From Alphaproteobacteria bacterium (GTDB lineage: Bacteria; Pseudomonadota; Alphaproteobacteria; DSM-16000; Inquilinaceae): a stretch of DNA of 37,046 bases. The stretch's first letter is position 1. Each line of letters starts with the position of its first letter. The DNA is taken from NCBI GenBank assembly GCA_009909005.1, contig JAAAOG010000178.1, positions 1 through 37,046 of the forward strand, in the 5' to 3' direction. Under the pieces are notes generated by a model that was not told the origin of the DNA, made no database searches, and saw only the letters and a program-made list of their open reading frames with translations. A program made the position numbers and the translations under genes. Of the stretch, positions 25,644 through 36,834 are shown in pieces.

Positions 25644-28600
25644 TCAAGCGAAGAAGGCAATGCCTTCGAACGCGTACTGGGGCAGGACATCTATGACGAA
25701 GTCCCGCTCCTCGGCGCTTGCCGTATAGAAGTGTGCGCCCTCCCCTTCGTTGAAGAAGCGGTAGATCGCTGACACCTCGTCGCTTGCGGCGACCTCGAAG
25801 GCCTGGAAGGCCTCGCCCTGGGAGTCCCAGATGGGGAGGTTGGCCTCGACGAAGTCTGCTTCCTCTTCCGAGATCGTGTAGAAGAGACCGCCGGTCTCGG
25901 TATTGACGAAACGGAAGACGGGCGATGCGCCCGGCTCGCCGGAGAAGTCATTGAAGGCCTCGCCTTCGAAGACGAAGGCGTCATCGGCTTCGACGGCGTC
26001 CTGTTCGGTCGGATCGACCGTATACAGGTGGAAGAGCTCGTCCTCATTGAAGTAACGCAGGACAGCCTCGTCGGTATCGTCCTGCGCGTTCAGGTTCTGG
26101 ATGCGGGTATCGTCGGCCGGGTCGGTCTCGGCTTCGGCAAAGGCCTCGGCCGGGGTCGCGAAATTGGCGGCCAGGTATTCGGCCAGGGCATCCTGTTCGC
26201 TGCCCGCCGCCGCGAAGGTGGCCGTGCCGTCGGCAAGGCCGAGATCTTCGATATCGACCCGGTTCTCGCCGAACTCGTCGAAGCGGTAACCGTCGCCGCC
26301 ACCGGCCAGGAAGTCCAGCGTGACGATGCGGATGTCGCGGGCGGGATCGCCGACGATCGCCCCGTCCTCGACCACGGTATCGAGAACGGTGCCATCCTCG
26401 TCGATGATCTCAAGCGACTGCACCCGGCTCAGCTCGCCCGGTTCCGCCGCATCGAGCCCCGGCTCATCGGGATCGAAGCTGAAGCGGAGACCGCCGACCT
26501 GCGGGAACCGGCCCGGCGTGTTGCCCGGATCGCTATCGGCCACGCCATGTTCGATGATGGCCGCCAGCTCCTCGGCGGTCAGGGTGAGCAGGGTCAGGCC
26601 GTTGTTGAAGCGCAAGCTGTTGACGATGTCGAGCTGGCTGACTTCGCCCTCTTCCTTGCCGACGTCCGGATTGGCCTGCGGCGGCAGCAGGGTTCCGTCC
26701 ATGTCGGTTCCGCCGATCGGCGCCCGGATGCCGCCGCCATTCTTCAGCGAGACCAGCACCGTGTCGTCGACATCCTGCGCCTGGGCCAGATTGGCGTCGG
26801 CGGTGAGGTTGCCGAGATTGGTCTCCTCGGTGCGGACGCTATCGCGCCGCCCGTCCAGATACACATCGGTGTTGCCGAAGGTGTTGCCGTCCTGGCCGGA
26901 AACGACGGCATCGACGCCGGCCACCAGGTCCTGGGTGAGGGCGCCTTTGCTGCCCTCGGCAAACGGGTCGGCATCGCCATAGAGATCGCTGACGACGTCG
27001 TCGGTCGTTGCGAAGGCGCCGCTCTCGGCCGCATCGATGCTGTCCGGGAGGAGAACGCCGTTTTCATCGAACTCGACAACCAGCCGGCCGACATAGCTGT
27101 ATTCGCCGTCGGTGCTGACGATGGCCGCCGGGTCGCCGCTGGCATTGGTGGTCAGGATCGGATAGCCGCGATCGGCCGTGTCGTCCGGGCGCAGCACGTC
27201 GGTCTCGTCAGCCAGCAGCGTGTCCGAGCCGCCGGCGATGACGATGTCGACATCCTCCAGCAACGTGATCAGCTGTTCTTCGAGCGCGATCTGCTGCAGG
27301 TGCGTGACCAGGACGATCTTGTTGACGCCGTCGGCGACCATCTGGTCGACCACCGGCTGCAGGATCGCCGCCAGGGCCTGCATGTCGTTGACGTCGGGTG
27401 AGACGCCGACCGTGCCCGGCGAGGAGATCATTTCGAGCAGCGGGGTGGTGGCGCCGATCACGCCGATCTGTTCGCCCCCTTCCTCGAAGATCGCCGCCGG
27501 AGCCAGGCGGGGGGTGGTCTCGCCGCTTGCGCTCTCGGCCGGCCCGATAACGTAGTCCGAGCCGTCGACGATCTCCGTGGTGGCCAGATTGCCGAGGTCG
27601 CTGTTGGCCGAGAAGTCGAGATTGGCCGACAGATACGGGAAGGTGGTGCCGATCCACTCATCGTCGCCGAGGGCGTCGGTATCCCCGAAATCCGGCTCGA
27701 TGATGCTCTCCAGGGTGTCGGTGCCGGTGTCGAACTCGTGATTGCCCAGCGCCGACGCATCGAAACCGATCACATTCATGATCGAGATGTCGATCCGGCC
27801 ACGATCGCCCTCCAGCGATTCATACTGGCTGCCGGCATCATCGGGCAGGCCGAAGACCGTATTGTGGGCGTCGTTGAACACCTGGTCGTTGACGAACAGG
27901 GCCGCGTTGAAGAACGGCCCCGGGATGACATTGTCGCCGGCCGACAGGGTGAGGGAATTGGCGACCTCGTCTTCCAGCAGGTCGACAATCGCGGCGAAGT
28001 TCGGGGCCCGGTCGATCGCCCGGACGCCGCCTTCCAGGTCCGAAGCGTGCAGGATCTGCAGTTCGAAGGTGTCGCCGGTGGTATCGCCGAGGACCGTATC
28101 GTCCCGCTCGTTCAGGTTCTGGATCCGGGTGTCTTCCGCCTCCGGCGTGTCCGGCTGGCTGAACGGCGTGTCGGCGAAATTGGCGGCCAGATACTCGGCG
28201 AAGGCATCCTGCTCGCCGCCGGTCCGCGTGAAGGTCGCGGCGCCGTCGTCGGTCAGGGCCGGACCGTCCAGCTCGCCGTTGAGATTGGTGTCTTCCCCGT
28301 CGTCGAGCTCGCCATTGCCGTTCTCGTCTTCGCCATCCAGCTCGACGACATTGGCGAATTCGGGGTCGGCCGCGACGAAATCGGGATAGGGGAAGCCGCT
28401 GCCGCCCTCGGCCAGGAAGTCGAGGGTGACGACGCGAATGGGACGCCCGGCATCGCCGACGATCTCGCCGTTCTCGACGACGACATCGGTGACGGCGCCA
28501 TTGTCGTCGACCAAAGCGAGGCTCTGGACCCGGCTGCCTTCCTCATTGTCCGGCTCATAGCTCAGGCGCAGGCCGCCGACATGCTGGAAGCTGCTCTCCA

Positions 28601-31600
28601 GCCCGTGCTCGATCACCTCTTTCAGCTGCTCGGCCGTCACGGTGACCAGCGACAGGCCGTTGTTGAAGCGCAGCGTGTTGTCGATGTCGAGCTGCGAGAT
28701 CTCGCCTTCTTCCTTGCCGGCGTTCGGGTTGGCGGCCGGCGGCAGCAGCTCGCCATTGTCGCCGATCGAGCCGATCGAGGCCCGGATGCCGCCGCCGTTC
28801 TTGAGCGACACGGCCACGCTGTCATCGGCCTCCCGCGCGGCGGCCAGATTGGCGTCGGCGGTGATGTTGCCGAGATTGGTCTCCTGCGAGCGGACGATGT
28901 CGCGGCGGCCTTCGAGATAGACCTCGGTCTGGCCGAAGATGTTGCCGTCCTGCACCTCGACGATGGCGCTGACTTCATCGGTCAGCGATTGGACCAGCGC
29001 GCCCTTGGTGCCCGCGACAAAGGCATTCTCGTTGCTCCAAAGCTCGACCACGGCCTCGTCCGTGGTGGCGTAGGCACCGCTGACGCTGGGGTCGACGCTG
29101 CCCGGGATGACGACGCCGTCGGCATCGAAGTCAACCACCAGCCGGCCGACATAGCTGTATTCGTCGGCGGTGTTGACGATCACCACCGGCTCGCCGTCGG
29201 CATTCTCGGTGACGATCGGGTAGGGCCCTTCGGCCTCGTCGCCCGGCTGCAGGCCGCGGCCCTCATCTTCGCGGTCGGCCAGCAGCGTTTCGCTGCCACC
29301 GGCAACCATGATGTCGACGCCGCTCAGGAACCCGGCCAGCTCCTGCTCCAGGGCGATGTTCTGCAGGTGGCTGACGACGATGATCTTGTCGATGCCCTGG
29401 CCGGTCAAGTCATCGATCACCGGCTGAAGGATGGTCGCCAGGGCCTCCATGTCGGTCGTGCCGGCGCCGGGGCCGAACACGGTGGTATTGCCGGGGGAGG
29501 AGATGGTGTCGAGGAACGGCGTCACGGCGCCGACGACGCCGAGCTGCTCGCCGCCTTCCTCGATGATGGTCGCCGGGGCGATCTTCGGCACGTCGTCGCC
29601 GGCCAGGCTCGCTTCCGGGCCGCTCTGGAAGGCGGTGTTCGGCAAAATCTCGCTGGTGTACAGGGGGTCGAGATTGCTGTCGGCCGAGGTGTCGAGATTG
29701 GCCGCGAGATAGGGGAACAGCGTGCCGACCGCCTCATCGTCGGCGAGGCCGGCATCGCCGAAATCTGCCTCGATGAAACCGGCTAGCGCGTTCGTGCCGG
29801 CATCGAACTCGTGATTGCCGAGCGAGGCGGCATCGAAGCCGATCGCGTTCATGATCGCGATGTCGAGCCGGCCGGCAGCGCCTTCCAGCGACTGGTAGGT
29901 CTGGTCGATGGCATCGCTCGGCAGGCCGAAGAGCTCATTGTAGAAGTCGTTGTAGACCTGGTCGTCGATCAGCCCGGCCGCATTGAAGAACGGCCCCGGA
30001 ATAACGTTGTCGCCCGAGGACAGGGTGATCGAGTTTTCGACCTCGTCTTCCAGGAAATCGACCACCGCGGCGAAGTTCGGGGCGTTGTCGATCGCCTCGA
30101 CGCCGCCTTCCAGGTCGGAGGCGTGCAGGATTTGCAGGGAGTAATCCGGCTCGCGGACGTCGTAGAGGGTGGTGGTGCCGCTCACCTCGTTGCCGACCGC
30201 CAGCAACGGCACGCCGGTCGGGCTGTCCTCGGCCGAAATGAAGGCGAGGCCTTCCGGTCCCAGATCGCCGACGGGGTCCTCGCTCGTGAGGCTCGCCTCC
30301 ACATCCTCGACCCGGAAGTCGCGGTTGTTGATGTACTGGACGAATTCGGCATTGGCCGGCTCAGTGACGTCATAGACAGCAATGCCGCCGACGCGCTCCA
30401 ACCCGATAAACGCATAGATGCTGTCGCCGACCTGGCCGATGGTCACGCCTTCCGGCTCGGGGCCCTTGGCATCGCTGCGGCTGTCGAAGCTGTCATTTTC
30501 GTCATTGTCGCTGTTGAAATCGAGCGGGTAATCAAGCGCCGTGATCTGCTCGAACTGATCGCCGCTGTCGAAAACGATCTCGCCGCTGCTGTTCCAGATG
30601 GTGAAGGAGCGGCTGCCGAAGACTTGCAGCTGGTCGAAATCGCCGTCGCCGTCGGTGTCGCCGTCGATGAGCGAGAATTCCAGCCGGCCGAGATTTTCCT
30701 CCAGCTGCAGGGTGGCCGCGTCCGGGAAGGCGGTCGGATCGAGGGTCACCTCCTCGTCGCCGATCCGGCCCTCGTCGCTGTCGCGGGCGTCACCCTCATT
30801 GGCGGTGACGTAATAGGTCTCCCCGCCGGTCTCGTAGGCGGCGATCGTGTCGGGCATGAACATGCCGAAGACCGGCCAGGTCTGGATATTGATGCCGTCA
30901 TCGCGGTCGCTGGCATCCAGGCCGTTGCCCTCGACGCTGTGATCCTTGAGGCCCAGCGGGACGATGTCCGTGACAGTGGCCGAGGCGATGTCGACCAGCG
31001 CGACGGCGTTGTTTTCCTGCAGGGTCACCCAGGCGGTGGTGCCGTCCGGCGAGACGGCGACATATTCCGGCTCGACGTCTTCCGACACGCTCTTGTCGGG
31101 GAAGATCCGAATGCCTTCGGCGCGCAGCGCGTCCTCCTGGCCGTCGAAGGCGGTAAAATCGGCGGTCTCAACGGTCGCGTTCTCGACGCCGTTGGAGATG
31201 TCGATGATGCTGACCGACGCCTGCGGGTCGACGGTATCGGTCGGCTGGCCCTCATTGGCGGTCAGCACGCGGCTGCCGTCCGGGGTAAAGGCGACCATGT
31301 CCGGCAGGATGCCGACCGTCACCGTGTTGAGGATATTGCCGTCAGTGTCGAGAAAGGCGACCAGGCCCGGCGCGGTTTCGTCGGTATTTTCGACGGCCGC
31401 GGCAACGATGCCGTTGCTGACCGCGATGCTGTTGACGCCCCCCGCCGAATCCCCCAAAGCCGCCAGGAGGTCGATCGACGTGACGAGGGTCGGGTCGCTG
31501 GGATCGGCGATATTGAGAACGTCGATCTGGTTCGCATCGGCATTGATAACGAACAGCCGCTGCGTTCCTGGATCATGGGCGACGATTTCCGCCGCGCCTT

Positions 31601-31652
31601 CGTCGAAAATGCCGGTTGAAAACGTGCCAAGTGCACTGAGCCGGATAGTCAT
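25644..31652 (-). CDS. Giant multidomain phosphatase: choice-of-anchor I-like propeller, two metallophosphatase/5'-nucleotidase units, DUF5648-like tail
   Basis: 2002 residues, strongly acidic, no N-terminal signal peptide. Residues about 1-500 resemble the choice-of-anchor I beta-propeller (VFGMFMPDTIAAYETGGETY, EGVTIGQVGDSIYAF). Two homologous units follow, about 508-1180 and 1200-1855. Each has LQILHASDLEGG, SSGDNVIPGPFFN or its variant, GNHEFD (about 611 and 1302), SHLQ or THLQ, and a 5'-nucleotidase C-terminal domain with ETNLGNITADANLA and LRFNNGL. Three C-terminal DUF5648-like units begin near 1864, 1910 and 1964 (IYRFFN, AHFYTAS). Ca-binding-like DTDGDGDFD and ENGNGELDDGEDTN occur. 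Related proteins release phosphate from nucleotides or phosphoesters outside the cell. Without a signal peptide, export by a type I-like route is inferred, but no GGxGxD repeats are seen. Start 31652 has GGGGAGG six bases upstream. Confidence 0.9.
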   Translation of the reverse strand: MTIRLSALGTFSTGIFDEGAAEIVAHDPGTQRLFVINADANQIDVLNIADPSDPTLVTSIDLLAALGDSAGGVNSIAVSNGIVAAAVENTDETAPGLVAFLDTDGNILNTVTVGILPDMVAFTPDGSRVLTANEGQPTDTVDPQASVSIIDISNGVENATVETADFTAFDGQEDALRAEGIRIFPDKSVSEDVEPEYVAVSPDGTTAWVTLQENNAVALVDIASATVTDIVPLGLKDHSVEGNGLDASDRDDGINIQTWPVFGMFMPDTIAAYETGGETYYVTANEGDARDSDEGRIGDEEVTLDPTAFPDAATLQLEENLGRLEFSLIDGDTDGDGDFDQLQVFGSRSFTIWNSSGEIVFDSGDQFEQITALDYPLDFNSDNDENDSFDSRSDAKGPEPEGVTIGQVGDSIYAFIGLERVGGIAVYDVTEPANAEFVQYINNRDFRVEDVEASLTSEDPVGDLGPEGLAFISAEDSPTGVPLLAVGNEVSGTTTLYDVREPDYSLQILHASDLEGGVEAIDNAPNFAAVVDFLEDEVENSITLSSGDNVIPGPFFNAAGLIDDQVYNDFYNELFGLPSDAIDQTYQSLEGAAGRLDIAIMNAIGFDAASLGNHEFDAGTNALAGFIEADFGDAGLADDEAVGTLFPYLAANLDTSADSNLDPLYTSEILPNTAFQSGPEASLAGDDVPKIAPATIIEEGGEQLGVVGAVTPFLDTISSPGNTTVFGPGAGTTDMEALATILQPVIDDLTGQGIDKIIVVSHLQNIALEQELAGFLSGVDIMVAGGSETLLADREDEGRGLQPGDEAEGPYPIVTENADGEPVVIVNTADEYSYVGRLVVDFDADGVVIPGSVDPSVSGAYATTDEAVVELWSNENAFVAGTKGALVQSLTDEVSAIVEVQDGNIFGQTEVYLEGRRDIVRSQETNLGNITADANLAAAREADDSVAVSLKNGGGIRASIGSIGDNGELLPPAANPNAGKEEGEISQLDIDNTLRFNNGLSLVTVTAEQLKEVIEHGLESSFQHVGGLRLSYEPDNEEGSRVQSLALVDDNGAVTDVVVENGEIVGDAGRPIRVVTLDFLAEGGSGFPYPDFVAADPEFANVVELDGEDENGNGELDDGEDTNLNGELDGPALTDDGAATFTRTGGEQDAFAEYLAANFADTPFSQPDTPEAEDTRIQNLNERDDTVLGDTTGDTFELQILHASDLEGGVRAIDRAPNFAAIVDLLEDEVANSLTLSAGDNVIPGPFFNAALFVNDQVFNDAHNTVFGLPDDAGSQYESLEGDRGRIDISIMNVIGFDASALGNHEFDTGTDTLESIIEPDFGDTDALGDDEWIGTTFPYLSANLDFSANSDLGNLATTEIVDGSDYVIGPAESASGETTPRLAPAAIFEEGGEQIGVIGATTPLLEMISSPGTVGVSPDVNDMQALAAILQPVVDQMVADGVNKIVLVTHLQQIALEEQLITLLEDVDIVIAGGSDTLLADETDVLRPDDTADRGYPILTTNASGDPAAIVSTDGEYSYVGRLVVEFDENGVLLPDSIDAAESGAFATTDDVVSDLYGDADPFAEGSKGALTQDLVAGVDAVVSGQDGNTFGNTDVYLDGRRDSVRTEETNLGNLTADANLAQAQDVDDTVLVSLKNGGGIRAPIGGTDMDGTLLPPQANPDVGKEEGEVSQLDIVNSLRFNNGLTLLTLTAEELAAIIEHGVADSDPGNTPGRFPQVGGLRFSFDPDEPGLDAAEPGELSRVQSLEIIDEDGTVLDTVVEDGAIVGDPARDIRIVTLDFLAGGGDGYRFDEFGENRVDIEDLGLADGTATFAAAGSEQDALAEYLAANFATPAEAFAEAETDPADDTRIQNLNAQDDTDEAVLRYFNEDELFHLYTVDPTEQDAVEADDAFVFEGEAFNDFSGEPGASPVFRFVNTETGGLFYTISEEEADFVEANLPIWDSQGEAFQAFEVAASDEVSAIYRFFNEGEGAHFYTASAEERDFVIDVLPQYAFEGIAFFA

Positions 31653-31829
31653 CTATCGCCTCCCCGAGTCGATCGCCTGATGAACGTGGATTGGAGTCTT
31701 CGTGGACCGGAATGTCCTAACGCGCCGGGACAGCCCTGTCGGAGGGCATGGCCATGCCAGCCGCATGCCCGCCCCGCATCGACGGCCGGGACGGTAGTCG
31801 TTCGGAGTGAGCGAAACGGTTACTGCTGC

Positions 31830-31847
31830 GTTAAAGTTTGATGAAAG
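31830..31847 (-). promoter_or_regulatory. Candidate PHO box (PhoB-binding site)
   Basis: On the minus strand the 18 bases read CTTTCATCAAACTTTAAC, matching 13 of 18 positions of the consensus CTGTCATAAATCTGTCAC, with the two seven-base half-sites in the right 11-base period (6/7 and 5/7). It lies about 178 bases upstream of the giant phosphatase start, which fits phosphate-starvation control. Confidence 0.4.
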
Positions 31848-32871: not shown

Positions 32872-35190
32872 TCAGGCCGCCCGGTCGCTGCGATACAGAT
32901 CGCCAAAGCGGGATGGGTCGATGTCCTGTTCGCGGTCGAAGGCGACATGTACGCCGCGCTCGGAAACATCGACCACGCGGCCGTCCCAGGTGGTTCCCAC
33001 CGACGGAACCCGCACGGTCACCGCCTTGCCGGACGCGATTCGGTCGATCCCCGTCAGCCGCGCCCCGCCCCGCGACAGGTCGATCAGGCGGGCGCTTCGC
33101 GGCACCTCATCGCAGATCAGGACGGCGTCGATCGAAACGGGAAAGCGCGTATGCGCCCGGCGGTCGGTGTCGGCGGTGGATGTCCGCACCAGGCGGGTCA
33201 CGGTCTCGCCGAAGCTGCGCACGGCATCGACCAGCGATGCCGCGCGGTCCTGGACCGAATCGGCCGCCTGCTTGGTCAATCCGGCTTCGTCGCTGACGAA
33301 GCTGATGCGCCCGCTGACATCCCGCGTCGCCTTCGAGGAGTCGTCGACATTGCGGGCGATCTCCTCTGTGGCCGCGCGCTGTTCGTGCACGGCCGCGGCG
33401 ACGGCCTGGGCAATCGCATCCATGTCGTGGATGGTGTCGCCGATGCCGGTAATCGCCTCGATCGTGGCCTGGGAGACCGAGCGGATTTCTGCGACGCGCT
33501 CCTCGATCTCCTGGGTCGACTGCGCCGTCTGCCTGGCCAGCGATTTCACCTCGTTGGCAACCACCGCAAAACCGCGCCCGGCCTCGCCGGCCCGCGCGGC
33601 TTCGATGGTGGCGTTCAGGGCGAGCAGGTTGGTCTGGTCGGCGATCGCGCCGATCAGCTTCACGACCTCGCCGATGCGTTGCCCGACCTCGCCGAGCTGC
33701 CCCACAACCTCCTGAGTTGTATCGGCCTTTTCCCTGGCCGAAGCGGCGATCCCGGTCGACTGCTCGACCTGGCGGGCGATCTCGTTGATCGAGGCGGCGA
33801 GCTGCTCGCTGGCCGACGAGACGGTCTCGGCATTGGCGAGCGCCTGTTCCGATGCGGCCGCGACATCGGCGGTATGGCCGGCGACCCTGTCCGAGGACTC
33901 GCGCAGGCCCTCGCTGTCCTTAAGCATCGCCCGGGCCACGTCCTCGACCGATTGCAGCGCATCGCGGGTGGATAGGTCGAGCGTGTCGGCCATTTGGCGT
34001 AGCGCCTCGCGACGGAGCTGCTGCTGGCGCGCTTCGGTCTCGGTCTGCTCGCGGCGCAACCGGTCGCGGTCTTCCGAGGCGGCGCGCAGGACCACCAGCG
34101 CGCCGTTCATGCGCCCGATCTCGTCGCGGCGGTTCCGCGTGTCGATGTCGATCGTGTAATCGCCCTCGGCCAGCCTCTGCATGGCCGTCGTGACCCGGCT
34201 GATGGGGCGCGCGATACTGCGACCGATCAGGAAGGCGGCGACCAACCCGATCAGGATGGCCGCGGCGGCTGCGGCTAGCATGGTGGTCACGGCGGTGTCG
34301 ATCTCGGCCGTGGCTTCGGGGCCAAGCTGGTCCTGCTGCCATTGGATAGAGGCCTTGAGGCCTTGGATCTGGCCGGCGACATTCGGGCCGATCGCGTCAA
34401 GCGTTCCGGTGATGAGGTCATTGCGGCGGTTGATGACCGCATGAACCTCTTCGAAGGCCGCGCGGTAGACGCCGGCGCCGTCGAGAACCGTCTGTGCCAT
34501 CGCCTGCCGCTCGGGATTTTGCAGCGCATCGCGCATCACGTTGCCCTGCGCCGCGAGGCCGTCGAGTTCGGCGATGGTGCGCTCATAAAAGGCCTGGTCG
34601 TTCTGGACAAGAAAGAGGGTGGCGTAGAGCCTCCCAAGCAGCAGATGGCGCATCTCCAGCCCGGCATGGACGGCGGCCTCGGTGTCGCCGTCGGCCGACG
34701 CCGAGGTCATGATCGCCGTCAGCGTCTGCTCAATTTCCGGGCCGACGGTACGGAACACGTCGTAAAGTTCGTTTCGTCGCTGTTGCAGCTGCGATACCTG
34801 ATCGAAGGCGGCGATATAGAGTTCCAGATCGGCATGCAGACCATCAAGGGTTTCGCGCTGGTTATCCAACAGGGCGAAGGACCCGGCCCGCCGTATCTGC
34901 TCCAGGGTGCGGGCGGCAGCATCGGCCACCGGCTCGGCATAATCGGGGGTGCCGTGGATGACGAAGTCCTTGGCCAACAACCGGGTTTCCAGCATCGCCG
35001 CCTGAATATTGCCCACCTGATTGGCGGCGCGGGCGAGTTGGCGATACTCGCCGAAATATCCCTCTGAATGCGTCAAGGATTGGTAGCCGACCACCCCCAT
35101 TGCCACCAGAAGGCTCAAGACGAGGGCGAAGCCGGCGGAAATGCTTGCCCTGATGCCCGGCCGAGCGCGCCGGATAAAGCCAAATGCCAT
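32872..35190 (-). CDS. Methyl-accepting chemotaxis protein with HBM sensor and C-terminal PilZ domain
   Basis: 772 residues from ATG 35190, which has GAGAGGGG upstream on the minus strand. TM1 lies at about 18-38. The periplasmic helical sensor (about 40-298) has the look of an HBM domain. TM2 is at about 300-323. HAMP follows (about 324-378; [19 protein letters not shown]). The signalling domain's hairpin tip includes [20 protein letters not shown] near 515-535. The last hundred residues are a PilZ domain with the c-di-GMP-binding motifs RRAHTR near 675 and DLSRGG near 699. Azospirillum Tlp1 is a known chemoreceptor with a PilZ domain that binds c-di-GMP and tunes taxis, so this receptor probably combines an external signal with c-di-GMP level. 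No other chemotaxis gene is adjacent. Confidence 0.92.
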
Positions 35191-35490
35191 AATTGCCCCT
35201 CTCCGCTTTCGACGCGACCAGATCGCCGATATTGCGAGTTTCTCGCGGTTGAATGCAACGCGAGCACCCGACAATAGGCCACATTGGTTGTTACGCAGCG
35301 GTAAATGCCGGTATCCATTATTCTCTTTATGGTTACCTTGGCGATGGTTCCCAGGGAGCGCATCGGCGTCGTCGCTATCGCGCTTCGCGGGCTGCCGAGC
35401 AGTCAGTGGCGTGCAATCGGGCTCTAGTCGTTAAACCCTCCTTGACATTTTTGGGCTGAGGATCGGCCTGTCGCGATCAGGAGAGGCCTT
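35191..35490 (+). other. Divergent intergenic region with a nine-base inverted repeat
   Basis: A 300-base region between the chemoreceptor and the pentapeptide gene, locally AT-rich. It contains an inverted repeat at 35310-35337 and a perfect TTGACA at 35442-35447 that could be a -35 element for the pentapeptide gene, although no good -10 is seen 16-18 bases later. No gene was found. Confidence 0.5.
35310..35337. promoter_or_regulatory. Inverted repeat, possible operator
   Basis: GGTATCCAT (35310-35318) and ATGGTTACC (35329-35337) are inverted copies with one mismatch, separated by ten bases. The dyad lies between two divergent genes, about 120 bases from the chemoreceptor start and 153 from the pentapeptide start. 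It may be a transcription-factor site; the factor is unknown. Confidence 0.4.
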
Positions 35491-36834
35491 ATGTCAGGAG
35501 CGGGTTTCGACGATAACGGACCGGTGCATCGCCCGGTCTCCGAGACCGCCTTTGCGGCGGCCATGCGCGCGCATGAGCGGTTTTTGCACAAGCGCGGCGG
35601 GCGCCGGGCCGATTTCCGTTTCTGCGATCTGTCGCATCTCGACCTCACCTGTCAGGACCTGAGCGACGCCGATCTCACTGCGGCGCGGCTGCAGGGCGGG
35701 CGGATGATGGGCGCGCTTCTGCGCTTCACGAACCTCTATGGCGCCGATTTGCGAATGGCCAATCTGCTGCGGGCCGACCTGTCCAAGGCCGATCTGCGCG
35801 GGGCGTCCCTGAACGGCGCGGTGCTTACGGAGGCCAATCTCAGCGAGGCCGATCTGCGCGAAGGGATGATCGCCGTTTCCGGGCCGGACGGGGAGTTGTC
35901 GCCCGTCGGTTTCGATCTCTGCCATTCCGATCTGGCCGGCGCCAAAGCCAATCTCGCGAATATGACCGGCGCCCGCATGGGCGGGGCCTTCGTCAAGCAC
36001 TCCGACCTCTCCGACTCCAATCTTCGGAAGGCAAAGCTCCGCGGGGCCAATCTCGGGCGGTGCGATCTTACCGGCTGCGTACTGGACGGCGCCGATCTCA
36101 GCAATGCGCAGCTGGAGGGGGCAATCCTCAATGGTGCCGACCTGCGCAATGCCCGCCTCGAGCATGCCGATTTCAGCAATGCGAATATGGTCGGCGCCCT
36201 GTTCGAACCGGCGGCCCTTGAAACGGCAAAGATGGCGGGGGTGCGGCTGGCCCGACCCCTGAAGACGCTGCCCCGGCCGCTCGGCGAAATCCTCGACGGC
36301 CATGCGCGCTGGGTGAATTCGGATGGCCGCGATGGCAGCCGCTGCAATGTTTCGGAGTTCGACCTGAGCGGCCTGGATCTCAGCGGCCGGGTGCTCGCAG
36401 CCGCCGTGCTGCGCTGCACGATTCTGGCCGGTTGCAAACTTGTCGGCGCCTCCCTGCCGACCGCCGACCTGTCGCTCGCCGATCTCCGCAAGGCCGATCT
36501 GGCGCGCGCCGATCTGCGCGGCGCCAATCTGCAGCGCGCCTCGCTGCACGGCGCCGATCTGCGCAACGCCCGCCTGTCGCCGGTTCACATCACCGGGCTG
36601 TCGACCTTCACCTGGCACACGGATCTCTCCTATGCGCGATTGGCCTCGGCCTGTCTGGCCGGTGCGGACCTGCGTGGCGGGCATTTCATGCATGCCGACC
36701 TGCGCGGGGCGGATTTGCGGGGTGCCGACTTGTCCGGGGCGGTGCTGCGCGGGGCCGACCTGTCGGGCGCCCTGACCGAAGGGTGCAGTTTCCGGGATGC
36801 CGATCTGGGCGAGGTCGCGGGCTTGCGCGGATGA
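35491..36834 (+). CDS. Two-module pentapeptide-repeat protein
   Basis: 447 residues, almost entirely tandem A(D/N)LxX repeats (for example ADLSKADLRGASLNGAVL near 92), which fold as a right-handed quadrilateral beta-helix. There are two modules, each opened by a similar short non-repeat element: AFAAAMRAHERFLHKRGGRR (about 20-39) and GEILDGHARWVNSDGRDGSR (about 267-286). The first module is about 40-245 and the second about 288-440. No signal peptide or membrane segment. Start ATG 35491 has AGGAGAGG four bases upstream. Pentapeptide proteins have varied roles and the function here is unknown; fluoroquinolone-protection (Qnr-type) proteins are a single shorter helix and this protein is not obviously one. 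Confidence 0.9.
   Translation: MSGAGFDDNGPVHRPVSETAFAAAMRAHERFLHKRGGRRADFRFCDLSHLDLTCQDLSDADLTAARLQGGRMMGALLRFTNLYGADLRMANLLRADLSKADLRGASLNGAVLTEANLSEADLREGMIAVSGPDGELSPVGFDLCHSDLAGAKANLANMTGARMGGAFVKHSDLSDSNLRKAKLRGANLGRCDLTGCVLDGADLSNAQLEGAILNGADLRNARLEHADFSNANMVGALFEPAALETAKMAGVRLARPLKTLPRPLGEILDGHARWVNSDGRDGSRCNVSEFDLSGLDLSGRVLAAAVLRCTILAGCKLVGASLPTADLSLADLRKADLARADLRGANLQRASLHGADLRNARLSPVHITGLSTFTWHTDLSYARLASACLAGADLRGGHFMHADLRGADLRGADLSGAVLRGADLSGALTEGCSFRDADLGEVAGLRG

Follow-up and report, generated by a model that had tools for sequence, protein, structure and literature searches.

Architecture of the twin-nucleotidase protein

The stretch of DNA analyzed here, referred to as the window, comprises the 37,046 nucleotides of contig JAAAOG010000178.1 from an alphaproteobacterium of the family Inquilinaceae (assembly GCA_009909005.1). 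Its minus strand encodes a 2002-residue protein in which a choice-of-anchor I β-propeller domain is followed by two homologous 5'-nucleotidase units and a C-terminal DUF5648 tail (Table 1). The coding frame is supported by guanine-plus-cytosine fractions of 0.68, 0.41, and 0.86 at the three codon positions. This arrangement of propeller head, nucleotidase units, and DUF5648 tail had been proposed in an original prediction made from the sequence alone, and it was borne out by Pfam and NCBIfam. The choice_anch_I family matched residues 18–499 (E 2.5e-141), and the choice-of-anchor I model NF038117 scored 607.4 bits, above its curated cut-off of 300. Two stretches matched 5_nucleotid_C (142.5 bits, cut-off 23.6, E 1.6e-41), Metallophos remained beneath its cut-off (18 bits against 21.5), and DUF5648 (PF18885) was matched by residues 1864–2001 (96.4 bits, cut-off 25, E 2.1e-27), within which three repeats were seen in the sequence.

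The protein is strongly acidic (19.6% Asp + Glu versus 3.5% Lys + Arg) and contains no cysteine in 2002 residues. As had also been predicted, no Sec-type signal peptide was evident, judged by a simple hydropathy measure only (1.31 versus 1.92–2.48 in four Sec-type controls). Nonapeptide GGxGxD (RTX) repeats were likewise absent from the protein in Pfam and motif/profile scans. This giant enzyme is probably exported and has two nucleotide-phosphatase units; its parts are known and their arrangement is rare.

Table 1. Positions of the gene, its domains and sites, and other features in the window
Feature	Positions	Strand	Basis
Whole open reading frame, 2002 residues	25644..31652	−	ATG start
Shine-Dalgarno-like GGGGAGG, 6 nt upstream of ATG	31659..31665	−	Read from sequence
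Choice-of-anchor I β-propeller domain, residues 18–499	30156..31601	−	Pfam/NCBIfam
Nucleotidase unit 1, residues 504–1187	28092..30143	−	Self-comparison; AlphaFold model, CD73-like fold
D-x-E replacing metal-binding D-x-H, unit 1 residues 513–515	30108..30116	−	Alignment of 83 units
G-G-S-E replacing G-H-S-H/N, unit 1 residues 785–788	29289..29300	−	Sequence alignments
EF-hand-like Asp/Asn-rich insert, residues 1106–1130, unit 1 only	28263..28337	−	Alignment
Nucleotidase unit 2, residues 1197–1860	26073..28064	−	Pfam; self-comparison
DUF5648 tail, three repeats, residues 1863–2002, exact C terminus	25647..26066	−	Pfam
Terminator-like hairpin, weak, ∼47 nt past stop codon	25573..25596	−	Hairpin search
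Chemoreceptor with HAMP, MCP signal, and C-terminal PilZ	32875..35274	−	Domain search
447-residue protein rich in pentapeptide repeats	35491..36831	+	Domain search

Likeness, rarity, and age of the two units

The two units were 57% identical over 703 columns by BLAST and 62% identical by MAFFT, and their DNA was 74% identical along a 1.5-kb stretch. For comparison, named genomes were scanned using LQILHASD and AID[NR]APNF as patterns; of the 225 relatives, the 80 best were taken. Conservation of those letters, D10 (unit numbering) included, is therefore partly by construction, and E12 and G283 lie outside both patterns. Alphaproteobacteria contributed 49 of the 80 relatives, the others coming from Cyanobacteriota, Bacteroidota, Planctomycetota, and further groups.

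The architecture had been called uncommon, which held for the pairing of units but not for the remainder. Only 1 of 85 open reading frames (ORFs) with unit matches at the loci of these 80 relatives contained two units, whereas a propeller and a nucleotidase unit shared one ORF in 26 of the 44 complete alphaproteobacterial relatives. The single tandem protein among them (L097) is apparently the 3374-residue protein of genome G008, apparently from the same bacterial family as the window. It resembles the window protein in having two nucleotidase units and a propeller but differs in that the units come first and the propeller last, with 11 RTX motifs and no DUF5648. Its first unit grouped with a gene of genome G015, and the two proteins do not plainly contain the same pair. 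The 10 plasmid matches listed from 29 records each spanned 1.4–2.0 kb, approximately one unit. YfkN-type phosphoesterases (PRK09419) are likewise long proteins with two metallophosphatase/nucleotidase units, but their units differ in kind, whereas both window units belong to one subfamily; the window protein scored 245.8 bits with the YfkN-type model NF006937, far beneath its equivalog cut-off of 2554.

The suggestion that the units were recently duplicated was not supported. A tree was built from 78 of the 80 relatives, the two window units, and three units from the family, leaving out L097 (from the same contig as G008) and L113 (broken frame). In the quick tree, unit 2 was placed beside L102, unit 1 was unplaced, and the window units were not sisters. 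A constrained tree joining them was not rejected (approximately unbiased p value 0.70) and was 17.3 log units better. Units of other species matched the two window units at 62 and 66% identity, respectively, which is similar to the identity between the twins.

The predicted restriction of an EF-hand-like insert to the first unit was confirmed, since no other of the 83 aligned units had an insert of that length at this site. A unit of the G008 protein (G008_a) has a short Asp-rich stretch there. The insert is of low confidence in the AlphaFold model of unit 1.

Fold and metal site of the nucleotidase units

The AlphaFold model of unit 1, built with 53 sequences, had a predicted local distance difference test score (pLDDT) of 92.2. 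A structure search with this model matched the Thermus 5'-nucleotidase 2z1a (Z 36.5, root mean square deviation 4.0, 488 residues) and CD73 entries (Z mostly about 36), the two-domain fold of CD73 and UshA being matched over the whole unit. Sequence identity to these closest solved structures was 16–30%, and two histidines of their metal site are replaced by Glu and Gly in the window units.

The canonical di-metal ligand set, which we take to be D-x-H, D, N, H, and G-H (the first His being assumed), was compared with the aligned units. D-x-E replaced D-x-H in all 83 (E12), and the second His was Gly in 82 (G283, aligned by sequence with the His of G-H-S-H/N). The other ligand positions were kept: D10 in 83, D45 in 81, N110 in 83, H111 in 81, and H259 in 80 units. 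The GNHE-x-D region was also retained, with D114 in 83/83, whereas position 285 varied (D 46, H 23, N 9, E 2). In the structural alignment, CD73 residue 27 was paired with unit residue 1, which would place D10 and E12 on the presumed CD73 ligands D36 and H38 if the alignment is ungapped there. Positions that presumably contact the nucleotide were N449 (83/83), R454 (81/83), F493 (83/83), and R418, the last invariant in an alignment (A3) of 51 of 59 diverse relatives. The original prediction had suggested that the two units may have different substrates; the catalytic and nucleotide-contact positions inspected were nearly identical in units 1 and 2.

The altered site appears common to the whole subfamily, the two window units included. 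Because the other ligands and the nucleotide-contact positions are kept, we read it as a putative constrained variant metal site rather than decay. Judged from the model, the subfamily probably consists of extracellular nucleotidases with a CD73-like fold.

Distribution of the DUF5648 tail

When the genome was searched with the window protein, 33 further matches were obtained. All of them fell in the tail region, and one extended back as far as residue 1757. In total, 23 ORFs contained DUF5648 above the Pfam cut-off, namely that of the window and 22 others, and the domain ended within 6 residues of the stop codon in 19 of them. The preceding domains included S8 subtilase with PPC, legume lectin with Calx-beta, Exo_endo_phos with PhoD, DUF4347 with VWD, Big_9, Laminin_B, Calx-beta alone, and RTX; in some proteins the tail was the sole Pfam match. 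By their family assignments these front ends appear mutually unrelated and of extracellular kinds. Start positions are uncertain for several of the proteins, above all C24:16038, which was shortened to an internal ATG, and C33. Among 17 genomes of the bacterial family, DUF5648 was found in this one and in none of the other 16. It was found in 8 of 385 genomes of a class sample, in which 10 of the 25 candidates of this genome were scored and the next richest genome had six matches, two of them short fragments. The tail, present on 23 proteins here and on none in the 16 other family genomes, is the larger finding and the part worth following.

A tail tree was constructed with six of the eight other-genome tails that have loci, omitting L061 (cut out of frame) and L066 (very divergent). 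The 23 tails did not form one clade against these six (3 changes). A group of 14 was restricted to this genome, ten of them being of the HFFT subtype, and the window tail paired with the tail of the C21 protein. The C21 gene shares an ATGA overlap with a glycosyltransferase-like gene (EPS_EpsE, 126.7 bits, beneath cut-off), and two further glycosyltransferase-like genes lie close to it. A single-sequence model of the DUF5648 tail (pLDDT 38.6) was too low in confidence to be used for the fold.

One of the tailed proteins, encoded on C52 (L058 8378–11725, −), is an Exo_endo_phos and PhoD fusion with no Sec-like start. It may be a partner in the use of phosphorus from nucleic acids.

The available text of PMC12853789 describes DUF5648 as a three-bladed propeller and as the receptor-binding end of Bacteroidales toxins, where it is proposed to bind O-antigen glycans. 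Passages of PMC11299179 place it in GH70 enzymes and suggest glycan recognition, and those of PMC13379245 present it as a putative wall-binding domain of one enterococcal endolysin. The Bacteroidales toxins BSAP-2 and BSAP-3 and the GH70 enzymes bear the same Pfam domain; elsewhere it sits on toxins and glucan enzymes, whereas here it is carried by 23 proteins of one genome. In the portions of the literature consulted, which treat the domain as a putative recognition module of toxins, an endolysin, and GH70 enzymes, no account of DUF5648 as a shared secretome end was found. A phage origin was weakly tested by a single scan of viral contigs with one peptide pattern, which gave 13 matches and no relative.

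DUF5648 in place of RTX modules

Choice-of-anchor I (NF038117) proteins, such as Skermanella rosea NZ_CP086113.1 (H1, annotated “choice-of-anchor I family protein”), share the propeller family and the nucleotidase unit with the window protein. They differ in having one unit and in their ends: at least two RTX motifs were present in 38 of the 44 complete alphaproteobacterial relatives, and BLAST detected a DUF5648 tail in none of the 75 complete relatives, the 44 included. A profile of the 23 tails gave no match in 2243 + 109 ORFs from the loci of the relatives; the same profile recovered 7/7 correctly cut tails from other genomes.

The C52 nuclease has a relative in the same bacterial family (61% identity in the nuclease part) in which the 23-tail profile detected no DUF5648 and whose end, judged by eye, is serralysin-like. 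For the subtilase encoded on C226, relatives of the protease part only (38–42% identity) were found in 6 of 384 other genomes. In the fetched sequence, at least four RTX motifs were present in three of the six, and the tail was present in none; three of the six were cut by contig or stretch ends, which makes this comparison weak. At the level of these sequence comparisons, exchange of an RTX end for DUF5648 is shown for the nucleotidase protein family, and it is suggested for a second family, that of the C52 nuclease.

In three loci from other Alphaproteobacteria (L060, L061, and L067), C-terminal DUF5648 followed modules that by eye looked serralysin- or RTX-type. The tail is therefore used with such proteins elsewhere too.

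Export-related features

None of the 23 DUF5648 proteins had a Sec-like start (hydropathy 0.09–1.51 versus 1.92–2.48 in the four controls, several starts having been set by eye). Together they contained 12 cysteines in 15,308 residues, compared with 861 in 90,387 residues of 173 other ORFs, a greedy longest-ORF set rather than curated genes. Type I substrates of the Prt/serralysin type end in an acidic residue followed by small hydrophobic ones. No paper stating such an acidic-hydrophobic type I end was found, nor was it given in the available passages of two reviews. An end of this kind was present in 17 of the 23 DUF5648 proteins and in 16 of the 173 control ORFs, by a rule fixed after the 23 had been seen. 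Independently of the 23, the motif occurred in 9 of 16 acidic control ORFs versus 7 of 157 others. It goes with acidity among the controls and is therefore the mark of a broader acidic group, to which RTX-type proteins lacking DUF5648 also belong.

Large, acidic, nearly cysteine-free proteins without DUF5648 and with recurring ends were also noted at L166, L168, L171, and L173. The end FGPDWLL occurred in three ORFs of L166 and L168, and GDMLFG or DDMLFG in L171 and L173; such ends are perhaps a second recurrent C-terminal module.

The genome contains a PrtD-type ATP-binding cassette (ABC) gene (contig C214, L059 8565–10304, −; 580 bits), the only ABC match above the PrtD cut-off, and the ORFs around it resembled, on visual inspection, glycosyl-, sulfo-, and methyltransferases. 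A leaderless, acidic, Cys-poor set of proteins with a shared end would be explained by a type I system.

Genomic surroundings

The neighbors of the twin-nucleotidase gene include a DctM-type transporter, a leader-bearing trypsin-like protease, and the chemoreceptor, and no tie between them and the gene was seen. An operon with the downstream trypsin-like gene was considered, and no link is claimed given the weak hairpin between the genes and the Sec-like leader of the protease itself; hairpins of this type are weak evidence, 7 being found in the region versus 4.1 expected. A Pho box upstream (31830–31847), matching 11 of 14 positions of the consensus as we take it to be, was rejected. The window held five sites with at most 3 mismatches versus 2.9 expected, and none of the 23 stretches upstream of DUF5648 genes exceeded the best background score. 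Elsewhere, on contig C214, a 571-residue ORF (L174 479–2194, −) has a Cas10/Cmr2-type appearance (GGDD) and is possibly part of a type III CRISPR system.

Discussion

The reading that we favor, while judging it slightly less probable than its negation, is that the window protein is a phosphatase of the 5'-nucleotidase family that leaves by an RTX/type I-like route and is held outside the cell at its surface, with DUF5648 as the surface-glycan retention module of this lineage. It builds on the observed domain order, the modelled fold of unit 1, the altered ligands, the spread and position of the tail, and the acidic composition with no Sec-like start and no cysteine. The protein would be made leaderless and would exit unfolded in one step, its last residues (acidic, then small hydrophobic) being read by the exporter. 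It would then fold outside the cell, perhaps with Ca2+ at the EF-hand-like insert. The DUF5648 propeller would bind the surface glycan of the cell itself and keep the enzyme nearby, where the two units could remove phosphate from nucleotides or phosphate esters. DUF5648 in this lineage occupies the place that RTX repeats hold in related proteins. Glycan recognition by DUF5648 is suggested in the accessible text of PMC12853789 and PMC11299179, and the overlap of the C21 gene with a glycosyltransferase-like gene was counted in favor of retention on a glycan. Caulobacter RsaA, described in the passages available as a type I substrate held on O-antigen (PMC8828063), offers a working analogy for surface retention only; it differs in binding through its N-terminal domain and in having the RsaDEF exporter.

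Several observations weigh against this reading. The original prediction of unusual export is strengthened by the occurrence of this tail on 22 other proteins, but the type I exporter that it proposed to seek was only half found: the PrtD-type ABC gene is present, and HlyD gave no match at E 1e-10 (best 34.9 bits, E 1.1e-8). HlyD was matched in all 16 other family genomes, in 15 above cut-off, leaving this genome as the sole exception of 17. The ABC gene adjoins HlyD in 10/10 loci checked from 10 genomes, and here a glycosyltransferase-like ORF follows instead. With the genome assembled in 230 contigs and 96% complete, loss of HlyD from the assembly is possible. The presence of an ABC gene without HlyD is the observation least well explained, and another export route may be in use. 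In addition, six of the 23 proteins miss the end rule, the window protein itself (EGIAFFA) barely fits it, and 4 of the 23 tails are internal. With an end branch of 1.09 (median 0.5), the window tail belongs to the more divergent ones, and catalytic activity is not certain given the DxE/Gly metal site.

A first alternative, unlikely but the most probable of the rivals, is that DUF5648 is a generic, shuffled binding domain that aims enzymes at prey, host, or detrital polysaccharide, with no retention on the producing cell. The receptor-binding toxin end and the putative wall-binding domain of the endolysin, as presented in the accessible parts of PMC12853789 and PMC13379245, agree with such a role, as does the divergence of the tail subtypes. 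A freely shuffled domain accords poorly, however, with the fixed terminal position in 19 of 23 proteins of unrelated function and with the glycosyltransferase-like gene overlapped by one DUF5648 gene.

A further reading, to which we give a rather low probability, is that DUF5648 serves at the C terminus as a tag for sorting and anchoring. It would have taken the place of RTX in a large part of one lineage's leaderless secretome, in step with loss or replacement of the HlyD-type exporter, the export route possibly being an unrecognized one. Another proposal, that DUF5648 itself tags proteins for export by a non-type I route, the lineage having lost its HlyD-type system and re-tagged its leaderless secretome, is improbable. 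It would account for 23 tails here against none in 16 family genomes, for the only genome of 17 lacking a HlyD match at that threshold, and for an ABC gene without its usual neighbor. Yet the link is seen in one genome only, of which approximately 4% may be missing; RTX-type and other acidic proteins without DUF5648 persist, and the end motif also occurs in 9 of 16 acidic control ORFs. Moreover, in other Alphaproteobacteria (L060 and L061) the domain stands behind modules that by eye look type I, and four of the 23 tails are internal. Least probable is that the units are non-catalytic, the nucleotidase fold serving as a binding or structural module: two presumed metal ligands are indeed replaced, but the retention of the remaining ligands, the GNHE-x-D region, and the presumed nucleotide contacts speaks for constraint, not decay.

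All of the component families were already known, and the use of DUF5648 as a shared secretome end is apparently new; no paper linking “choice-of-anchor” with “nucleotidase” was found in the literature search. If the exchange of anchors is real, DUF5648 would be a new and testable anchor for the “choice of anchor” naming of NCBI and an example of a leaderless secretome being re-tagged. If the tag reading holds, the “choice of anchor” would be realized by a glycan-binding propeller. The DxE-site subfamily spans Alphaproteobacteria, Cyanobacteriota, Bacteroidota, Planctomycetota, and others, with the closest solved structures at no more than 30% identity to unit 1, and its metal and substrate bear on environmental phosphorus use.

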